Shown: positions 16,763 through 27,496 of the stretch, piece after piece
Numbering within the stretch: the first letter of the stretch is position 1
Layout: every line of letters starts with the position of its first letter
IMG/VR virus record: IMGVR_UViG_3300037831_000026
Span: 1 to 28,597 of that record
DNA from: a virus
DNA length: 28,597 bases
Strand: one strand, 5' to 3'
Made by a program: the position numbers and the translations under genes
Notes under the pieces: model-generated
What the model saw: the letters and a program-made list of their open reading frames with translations, nothing else
Database searches by the model: none
What the model was told of the DNA's origin: nothing

Positions 16763-16791
16763 AGTATAGCATAGGTTTCACAGGTTGTCAA
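16763..16791 (-). promoter_or_regulatory. Sigma-70 promoter, minus arm
   Basis: On the minus strand TTGACA (16791-16786), 17-bp spacer, TATACT (16768-16763), then ATAAACAGTTAAG. The 43 nt from 16792 to 16750 match the promoter of the RNA gene (25488-25530) at 39 positions. Confidence 0.9.
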
Positions 16792-25432: not shown

Positions 25433-25470
25433 AAGCCAGTAGACTAACAATCTACTGGCTTATTTTTATC
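25433..25470 (+). terminator. Intrinsic terminator
   Basis: Perfect 11-bp stem AAGCCAGTAGA/TCTACTGGCTT with a 7-nt loop, then ATTTTTATC. Isolates the RNA-gene promoter that follows within 19 bp. Confidence 0.93.
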
Positions 25471-25488
25471 TCTGATTACATCTACACC

Positions 25489-25517
25489 TTGACAACCTGC
25501 GAACCCTATGCTATACT
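25489..25517 (+). promoter_or_regulatory. Sigma-70 promoter of the tmRNA-like gene
   Basis: TTGACA (25489-25494), 17-bp spacer, TATACT (25512-25517). Nearly the same 43-nt sequence drives the minus arm at 16792-16750. Transcription would begin about 25524, giving a 42-nt leader with a small hairpin (CCAGT/ACTGG at 25543-25560) before the mature RNA. Confidence 0.9.
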
Positions 25518-25565: not shown

Positions 25566-25692
25566 GGGGTAGCAAGGAGTTCGACTACCCTACAGGCATA
25601 GTGAGTAGAGATAACCGGCCTAGCGAAGACTTGAAAGCTATGTACTTAAACTGTAGGATAGGACGGGGGTTCGATTCCCCCCTACTCCACCA
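25566..25692 (+). ncRNA. Minimal tmRNA-like RNA, 127 nt
   Basis: Acceptor stem GGGGTAG (25566-25572) pairs with CTACTCC (25682-25688), followed by discriminator A and encoded CCA. The D-arm analogue has TTCGAC, as in tmRNA. The T-arm is GGGGG-TTCGATT-CCCCC (25665-25681). Between them lies a long helix 2: CTA-c-CCTACAG (25585-25595) with CTGTAGG-a-TAG (25651-25661), then GCATAG (25596-25601) with CTATGT (25638-25643), with a 7-nt bulge, as in tmRNA helix 2. The 36 nt enclosed are far too short for the pseudoknots and tag frame of a normal tmRNA of about 350 nt. It does not fold as an ordinary tRNA. The overlapping frame 25508-25705 is a shadow. Family: tmRNA-derived, function unknown. Confidence 0.7.
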
Positions 25693-25693
25693 C

Positions 25694-25722
25694 TTGACAA
25701 CATAGATAAATTGTGGTATACT
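25694..25722 (+). promoter_or_regulatory. Sigma-70 promoter
   Basis: TTGACA (25694-25699), 17-bp spacer, TATACT (25717-25722), then AATAACAG. It begins one base after the CCA end of the RNA gene; no terminator separates them. Drives the 25765 gene. Confidence 0.9.
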
Positions 25723-25764: not shown

Positions 25765-26139
25765 ATGATTAAGATACCTCACGGCGTAGCTCTGGATATT
25801 TTGAAGTACAATCTACGCGAGTATAATGGTGAAGATTTTATGGTAGACTATCCGAAGTTTATCACACAACTTGGTATCCCGCAGTACTATATGCTCGACT
25901 ATGTACGTCTGTACATAGAACAGCAGTACGGAACAGACTGCGATACGTCTGAAGTCTTTGAGGACCTTACAAAATACAATTCAAAGTATCTGTTGAGAAT
26001 TAACAGATACGCCGGAAGCGATGCTTCCTACCACTGGAAGCATATCTGTGGAAGGCATAGTATACCTCACGATAAGTTAGTTTGGGAAATATCTAATGAG
26101 ATAGAGATGCTAATGCGGGAGATTAATAGCGAGACATAG
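25765..26139 (+). CDS. Hypothetical protein, 124 aa
   Basis: AAAGGAG before the ATG and its own promoter at 25694-25722; terminator at 26164. Predicted helical with many Tyr and acidic residues (YYMLDYVRLYIEQQYGTD), one CGRH segment (residues 95-98), no membrane segment. No family is recognised. Together with the 24602 gene it flanks the tmRNA-like RNA, each with an independent promoter and terminator. Confidence 0.62.
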   Translation: MIKIPHGVALDILKYNLREYNGEDFMVDYPKFITQLGIPQYYMLDYVRLYIEQQYGTDCDTSEVFEDLTKYNSKYLLRINRYAGSDASYHWKHICGRHSIPHDKLVWEISNEIEMLMREINSET

Positions 26140-26210: not shown

Positions 26211-26672
26211 ATGTTGTATATAGGTATGGATTGTAGCATCAAAAATCTGGCATTAGTAGAACCAACAACGGGCCTTGCTACGCACTATGCTACTGGTCTA
26301 TCATTAAAGAGTACACCATCAGAGTATCTGGCTAGGGCATATGAGTGTAGTAAGGTATTGAACTTATATAGAACACCGTACATTATACTAGTAGACTTCA
26401 CTATGTACCAGATGAAAGCTAGACAATCACAGATGAGACTTAATAGCCTGCTCATAGGTGCCGTGTTAGCATATTGTAATCCGTTTGATGTACGTCTCGT
26501 AGAACCTAAGCATGTACGTCAGGCCCTGGGTTTGAAAGCTAATGTAAGTAAGTCTACTGTGTATGAGATATTTGATGAGCTATATCCTATGTATAAGGTT
26601 CATCAGTATACCAATGACCATATACAAGACGCTATGGTTCTTAGTGTATTAGGGAAAGTGGGGTTAATATGA
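26211..26672 (+). CDS. RuvC-like Holliday-junction resolvase
   Basis: 153 aa RNase H-fold protein. YIGMDCSIKNLAL with D7 as first acidic residue, IILVDF with D62 at the second position (Glu in bacterial RuvC), RLVEPKHVRQALGL, and the C-terminal NDHIQDAMVLSV with D136, H137 and D140. This matches the phage/poxvirus branch of the RuvC family. It would resolve branched DNA before packaging. AGGGGG lies just ahead of the ATG. It overlaps the next gene by 4 nt (ATGA). The fold and role are confident; junction specificity is inferred. Confidence 0.8.
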   Translation: MLYIGMDCSIKNLALVEPTTGLATHYATGLSLKSTPSEYLARAYECSKVLNLYRTPYIILVDFTMYQMKARQSQMRLNSLLIGAVLAYCNPFDVRLVEPKHVRQALGLKANVSKSTVYEIFDELYPMYKVHQYTNDHIQDAMVLSVLGKVGLI

Positions 26673-27496
26673 ACACACAAACTATTATTGACAGACAGAT
26701 ACCTATAATAGCTTCCTTCAGTGGGGGCAAAGATAGTACAGCATTGGTACTCTATCTGCTGTATGAAAGTGGTATACCAAAAGAGCAGATACATATTGTG
26801 TTTGCAGACACGGGCTGGGAACACCACTACACGTATTTTAGTGTTCTTAAAATGGCTGAAAGACACCCAGTGCAAGTAGTAAGAAGTAAGAAATACCCAG
26901 GTGGTATGAGACAACTTATGATTGAGAGAGGTATACCTACTCAGAAAGCAAGATTTTGTACCTCTGAATTGAAAGTGTTTCCTATACGAGAGTATCAGGA
27001 GAGGTTTGAAGAGTTTGTATCTGCAAAAGGTATACGGAGAGAAGAGGCTACAGCAAATAATAACCGTAATGTATCTGAGTTTGAGCTAGACTATGGTACT
27101 ATGAGGTATTCCTGGTATCCTATTGCAGACTATACCTTGCAAGACGTATGGGATATACATCATAAGTATTCCTTCCCTGTCAATAAATTGTATGCTGTGG
27201 GGTGTTCTAGGGTGGGTTGTTTTCCGTGTATCTTTGCTAGAAAGAATGAGTTAGCGTTATGCAGTAAGTATGCACCAGAGCATATTGATATAATACGACA
27301 AGCAGAAGAACAGAGGCACTTTCCTTACATTTCGCCCTCAGGTAAGCCTAAGGTTTACTACAATAGAGTAGCCAAAAATGGCAAGCCATACGCCAGTATA
27401 GACAGTATACTCATATGGGCGAAGACAGACAGAAAGGACCATAAGTATCACGTACCAGAGGATACAGGTACTTGTAGTGAAGGAGTATGTGAGTAG
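26669..27496 (+). CDS. PAPS-reductase-family protein with putative Fe-S site
   Basis: 275 aa. PP-loop SGGKDS at 18-23, FADTGWEH (46-52), RFCTSELK with C97 and a GCSRVGCFPC segment with C179, C184, C187 plus C198, which could hold a 4Fe-4S cluster as in DndC/TtuA-type or APS reductase-type enzymes. Phages often encode such PAPS-reductase-like proteins; they may use activated sulfate, or act on nucleic acid (for example DNA sulfur modification), but no Dnd partner genes are seen here. The gene is coupled by ATGA to the RuvC-like gene. The C-terminus ends GTCSEGVCE, another Cys pair. Confidence 0.78.
   Translation: MNTQTIIDRQIPIIASFSGGKDSTALVLYLLYESGIPKEQIHIVFADTGWEHHYTYFSVLKMAERHPVQVVRSKKYPGGMRQLMIERGIPTQKARFCTSELKVFPIREYQERFEEFVSAKGIRREEATANNNRNVSEFELDYGTMRYSWYPIADYTLQDVWDIHHKYSFPVNKLYAVGCSRVGCFPCIFARKNELALCSKYAPEHIDIIRQAEEQRHFPYISPSGKPKVYYNRVAKNGKPYASIDSILIWAKTDRKDHKYHVPEDTGTCSEGVCE

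Follow-up and report, generated by a model that had tools for sequence, protein, structure and literature searches.

The window analysed here, which is the whole of an IMG/VR virus record (28,597 bases), carries a tailed-phage gene set that includes portal, major head protein and terminase genes. On its forward strand, at 25566-25692, lies a 127-nt RNA that we identify as a tmRNA without its message, on the basis of covariation and of a match to the Rfam tmRNA family RF00023 that runs end to end (model positions 1-374) and scores 54.5 bits against a gathering score of 47 (E 5.6e-19). The presumed mature ends are those set by the acceptor stem and the encoded CCA. In the following list the acceptor stem and helices 2a and 2b are supported by covariation, the D-loop analogue by sequence and the RF00023 match, the linker and T arm by sequence and covariation, the elements of the closing loop by a hand alignment of four RNAs, and the CCA end and the transcription signals by sequence.

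25433-25461, +: terminator-like hairpin with a T tail, closing the upstream transcription unit
25489-25517, +: promoter of the 127-nt RNA, TTGACA-17-TATACT, its -10 preceded by TG
25566-25692, +: message-less tmRNA, 127 nt
25566-25572 with 25682-25688, +: acceptor stem, 7 bp, third pair G:U (G3:U70)
25573-25585, +: D-loop analogue CAAGGAG-UUCGAC (UUCGAC at 25580-25585)
25586-25595 with 25651-25660, +: helix 2a, 10 bp with one C.A mismatch
25596-25601 with 25638-25643, +: helix 2b, 6 bp
25602-25637, +: closing loop, 36 nt, conserved in sequence
25604-25607 and 25633-25635, +: AGUA opposite GAA, adjoining helix 2b
25608-25610 with 25630-25632, +: helix 2c, 3 bp
25611-25629, +: cap ending in AAGA
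25623-25634, +: GCG AAG ACT TGA frame, which lies within the structured loop and is not a conserved tag
25644-25650, +: 3'-side bulge of 7 nt separating helix 2b from helix 2a; homologues have 4-8 nt here
25661-25664, +: GGAC linker
25665-25681, +: T arm with a 5-bp stem
25689-25692, +: discriminator A and encoded CCA
25694-25722, +: second exact TTGACA-17-TATACT promoter, two bases past the CCA
25765-26139, +: open reading frame of 124 amino acids without a known family, preceded by the second promoter

Like standard one-piece tmRNA (RF00023), the RNA has a G3:U70 acceptor stem, UUCGAC, GGAC, a T arm, an encoded CCA and a two-part helix 2 that links the tRNA-like part to the remainder; where the standard molecule has a tag frame and pseudoknots, this one has a 36-nt loop, and there are no pseudoknots in the 127 nt. 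Its halves stand in the full one-piece order, not permuted, and the permuted two-piece family RF04321 gives a partial match alone (24.5 bits, below the cut-off of 47). ARAGORN reports no tRNA and no tmRNA in the window. The RNA lacks the D stem and anticodon arm of a tRNA, as judged by ARAGORN, the fold and the covariation structure. The minimum-energy fold contains the helices that the first-pass annotation had drawn, although the fold energy is unremarkable (z -1.33), and the case for the RNA therefore rests on homology and covariation. That annotation had described, at these coordinates, an RNA resembling tmRNA but missing the mRNA-like half, with its own promoter and an upstream terminator. 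Sequence, fold and the score above the gathering threshold agree with it helix by helix, the full-length match and the lack of a tag frame confirm its view of the molecule, and both transcription signals are in place. It had overlooked that the loop sequence is conserved, that the same promoter recurs just past the RNA, and that similar RNAs make up a large family.

The TTGACA-17-TATACT motif is present in five exact copies in the window and is therefore one of the phage's own promoters. A search of the stretch from the RNA to the 124-amino-acid reading frame gave no terminator, and for this reason the transcript probably needs trimming at both ends. Neither of the two open reading frames flanking the RNA yielded an informative family. 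Two further observations concern the surroundings: the promoters at 16763-16791 (reverse strand) and 25489-25517 (forward strand) agree at 27 of 29 positions, counting the spacer, and have different genes downstream, and the forward-strand gene at 26669-27496 encodes a PAPS-reductase-like protein with similarity to BrxP, SspD and DndC, which are proteins of defence systems.

Homologues of the same form and the closing loop

Searching viral contigs with a covariance model built from the window RNA alone retrieved the 121-127-nt form on three of them, L139 (73.6 bits), L136 (64.0 bits) and L312 (57.4 bits), all scoring above the best 78-nt form (52.0 bits). The three contigs and the window share no proteins with one another over the stretches compared (tblastx, 1e-6). 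Across the four RNAs, all 27 pairs are kept and 107 of 107 cells are paired, as against 71% in shuffles; both sides have changed in 17 of the 27 pairs (6.6 in shuffles). When the strands are slid against each other, pairing falls to about half. Helix 2, for which covariation among relatives had been named earlier as the check, shows such two-sided changes in 11 of 15 pairs (6 of 9 in helix 2a, 5 of 6 in helix 2b), and compensatory change has thus preserved it across four unrelated contigs. The alignment behind these counts is model-based and so fitted to the structure, a sequence-only alignment having misplaced helix 2; a model-free hand alignment gives the same helices, with the acceptor stem (7/7), helix 2b (6/6) and T stem (5/5) complete in all four RNAs and a one-base bulge required in helix 2a of L139.

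Other searches for relatives gave little. By blastn, the window RNA and that of L136 found T-arm fragments alone in cultured phages, mostly in full tmRNAs or other genes; the RNR protein as query found no relatives among the viral contigs; and the sole match of a bacterial genome scan for the Type-B motif (L286) is the antisense of tRNAs and was rejected. Separately, tmRNA-like RNAs of 117-125 nt with inner parts unlike that of the window RNA lie on L063 (1727-1851, +), L313 (354-475, -) and L319 (2413-2529, -), and the first two seem to have a common core, GGC...AAAGGCCC...GCC.

The closing loop is identical at 12 of 36 columns across the four RNAs, while the surrounding stems have diverged. 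AGUA and GAA, facing each other next to helix 2b, resemble a bulged-G (loop E) motif in sequence. Helix 2c is paired in 11 of 12 cells, its middle pair being A-U, G-C or C-G, and none of 20,000 shuffles matched this. The first-pass annotation had proposed the GCG AAG ACU UGA frame (A-K-T-stop) in this loop as a possible vestigial tag. L136 reads V-K-T-stop, but L139 has TGG in place of the stop, the in-frame stop of L312 comes ten codons later, and the third base of the Thr codon, which varies, is paired in helix 2c, so that the stretch is explained by structure; we therefore rejected a conserved tag.

In the closest relative phage, G001 (37,944 bases, about 70% DNA identity in syntenic blocks), the syntenic place (L287, 13524-13600) holds a look-alike of the 5' half, GGGGATGATAGGGTTTCGAC, followed by a terminator-like hairpin, and the 3' half is nowhere in the genome. 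Shuffled genomes are expected to contain 0.01 such matches each, but the covariance model gives the look-alike no score. It is probably a remnant of the RNA, although the evidence for this is weak, and on that reading the RNA would be accessory in the lineage of the window phage.

Short message-less forms in other phages

Viral contigs were also scanned by pattern, for UUCGAC at various distances from a GGAC-T-arm, and the matches were filtered for full pairing of the acceptor stem (7/7) and T stem (5/5), which removed many tRNA artefacts of a first loose scan. At least 92 distinct RNAs of 70-140 nt passed, that of the window included, and three more were added later (about 95, a lower bound); most are short forms of 77-83 nt, a class with at least 81 members. 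All 92 distinct short RNAs listed, that of the window among them, have G:U as their third acceptor pair and A as their discriminator (G3:U70 and A73, together the alanine signature), features that the search pattern had not specified. The full CCA is encoded in only 23 of them. Among the 81 listed RNAs of 77-83 nt, each of the first four helix 2 pairs is standard in 75-81 (34-41 in shuffles). Twelve loci were submitted to Rfam, and every one matched RF00023 in the right place and above the gathering score (51.6-79.5 bits).

The 77-83-nt class also has matches in cultured phages, namely the Streptomyces phages LuckySocke, GiJojo, pSt2308, BRock and Alone3 and the Pontimonas phage phiPsal1, and the structure filters confirm the short form in LuckySocke, phiPsal1 and pSt2308. 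The forms of about 81 nt in cultured Streptomyces and Pontimonas phages lie at

L289, 601-681: message-less tmRNA
L290, 600-681: message-less tmRNA
L305, about 1000-1080: message-less tmRNA
L306, about 1000-1070: message-less tmRNA

and in the Streptomyces phages they sit within tRNA arrays. The RNA is unannotated in the four records opened (LuckySocke, phiPsal1, pSt2308 and BRock). The structure filter was negative for SM1, Validus, Acibel004, VCM, Erwinia, Dorin, S-CAM1 and other T-arm matches, which were rejected. None of 19 records carrying or related to the short RNAs contains an SmpB gene.

Among larger tmRNA-like RNAs, those on L038 (1623-1762, +), L155 (11474-11613, -) and L161 (10686-10823, -) measure 138-140 nt, have a conserved GCCYACAGCAAATACGGYAGG and may contain a short tag frame, ANTAGLTE* or ANTVGMFK*, that lacks the usual hydrophobic end; the L038 and L161 contigs come from related phages, so this evidence is weak. 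A Pistol ribozyme (54.8 bits) on L245 (1621-1716, +) has an 81-nt message-less tmRNA some 2.3 kb away.

In the open-licence literature a message-less phage tmRNA is already known from one case, mycobacteriophage DS6A, for which a tmRNA consisting of the tRNA-like domain only is listed (PMC4131195). That RNA and ours are alike in being phage-encoded tRNA-like domains without a tag frame. Compared by description only, the DS6A molecule has little beyond this domain, whereas the window RNA adds helix 2b, the 7-nt bulge and the conserved 36-nt loop, so that the 70-83-nt forms look closer to DS6A than the 127-nt RNA does. Mitochondrial tmRNAs of jakobids and oomycetes (RF02544) and plastid forms of about 65 bp (PMC11915505) likewise have no tag frame but are organellar, the mitochondrial gene being usually permuted, and their sequences were compared by Rfam scan alone. 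The ssrA-type genes of other phages (mycobacteriophages Bxz1 and Bongo, Streptomyces phage Faust and others) encode full-length tmRNAs of about 400 nt with a tag (403 nt in Bongo), unlike the 127-nt RNA. The open-licence literature describes neither the 121-127-nt form with its conserved cap nor the abundance of the short form; judged by sequence, message-less phage tmRNA is far commoner than reported, and the 127-nt RNA is a variant of that kind.

Proposed function and its alternatives

Nearly all bacteria rescue ribosomes by means of tmRNA, and the process is a drug target; to our knowledge, the ways in which phages manipulate it are poorly understood. We propose, with a probability of roughly 0.6, that the RNA is an alanylated, SmpB-binding decoy that competes with the tmRNA of the host. 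A transcript made from the strong dedicated promoter would be trimmed to 127 nt by tRNA-processing enzymes, charged by the host alanyl-tRNA synthetase (AlaRS) and bound by host SmpB and EF-Tu; SmpB would have to come from the host, since the 19 records have no gene for it. The RNA might then enter stalled ribosomes or soak up SmpB, and because it offers no template, tagging could not be completed and it would compete with host tmRNA. Trans-translation would thus be damped, and truncated phage proteins might be spared tagging or rescue kept from disturbing the infection, with the cap possibly binding a protein or the ribosome.

This proposal draws on the full-length RF00023 match and the helices preserved by compensatory change in four unrelated contigs, on G3:U70 and A73 in all 92 short RNAs listed, on the strong dedicated promoter, and on published work. 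E. coli SmpB grips the tRNA-like domain at the elbow, with Trp122 in a pocket of A15, U17 and A334 and with G19 as a conserved contact; together with SmpB and EF-Tu, a truncated tmRNA binds to the ribosome (PMC8363625). By our own alignment the window RNA has equivalents of U17, G19 and A334, while the position of A15 differs on account of one extra base. A rescue inhibitor or SmpB decoy was among the roles suggested by the first-pass annotation, and DS6A provides a precedent: its RNA inhibited endogenous tmRNA in E. coli according to Mao et al. 2009, as that work is cited in PMC11915505 and PMC4131195. The latter account has the DS6A-like molecule inhibiting whether chargeable or not, perhaps by titrating SmpB (PMC4131195). 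That the alanine signature is so strictly conserved here suggests a use for charging in nature, and entry into stalled ribosomes may therefore matter besides titration; simple titration may be only part of the mechanism, the inhibition in the E. coli expression test having needed no charging. We accordingly favour a competitor or trap of trans-translation. The conserved cap is left unexplained by a bare decoy.

Two other readings also draw on the alanine signature. The RNA could assist rescue, being charged and bound by SmpB, accepting the nascent chain and adding a single alanine, with release left to another factor, as proposed for tag-less mitochondrial tmRNA, which is suggested still to help with incomplete mRNAs (PMC11915505). 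The strictness of the alanine signature would fit such a role, yet no release mechanism is known and the similar phage RNA, as the cited accounts have it, inhibited tmRNA in E. coli, and we regard it as unlikely. Alternatively, the RNA could be a sink or regulator in some process other than trans-translation, acting as a decoy of AlaRS, of EF-Tu or of an RNase or toxin attacking tRNA or tmRNA. The preserved alanine signature and tRNA-like end, and the place of the Streptomyces phage short form within tRNA arrays, would suit this. Helix 2 and the UUCGAC/GGAC elbow, needless for binding AlaRS or EF-Tu alone, are kept nonetheless, which makes a sink of this kind distinctly improbable.

Phages use ssrA as an integration site, and the occurrence of only a 5'-half look-alike in the related G001 could be taken to mean that the RNA is a decayed host ssrA copy or an integration-site remnant. 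Both halves are intact, however, the helices covary with compensatory changes in four contigs, the RNA has its own promoter, and no tyrosine integrase was found in the window record; an integration-site remnant was rejected on these grounds, and decay of either kind is scarcely credible. A functional minimal tmRNA with a tag of two or three codons (A-K-T-stop or K-T-stop) would account for the frames in the window and L136, and two-codon tags occur in nature (PMC11915505). It is nevertheless very unlikely, given the frames of L139 and L312, the pairing of the variable base in helix 2c and the lack of pseudoknots.

Beyond the decoy itself, we suggest tentatively, and with more doubt than confidence, that the 121-127-nt class is a separate functional form in which AGUA/GAA, helix 2c and the AAGA cap replace the message with a protein- or ribosome-binding module, and that message-less tmRNAs are in wide use among phages of many lineages, as a tool maintained by selection. 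If the cap is such a module, the 127-nt class would actively trap or redirect stalled ribosomes and would not be a passive SmpB sponge. Message-less tmRNAs are overlooked by standard tools and annotation, as the ARAGORN result in the window and the unannotated Streptomyces and Pontimonas phage records examined illustrate; what had been one published oddity now has about 95 distinct relatives, a lower bound, in viral contigs and cultured phages, together with a capped class. Should these RNAs block or redirect rescue, they would be natural RNA inhibitors of trans-translation.
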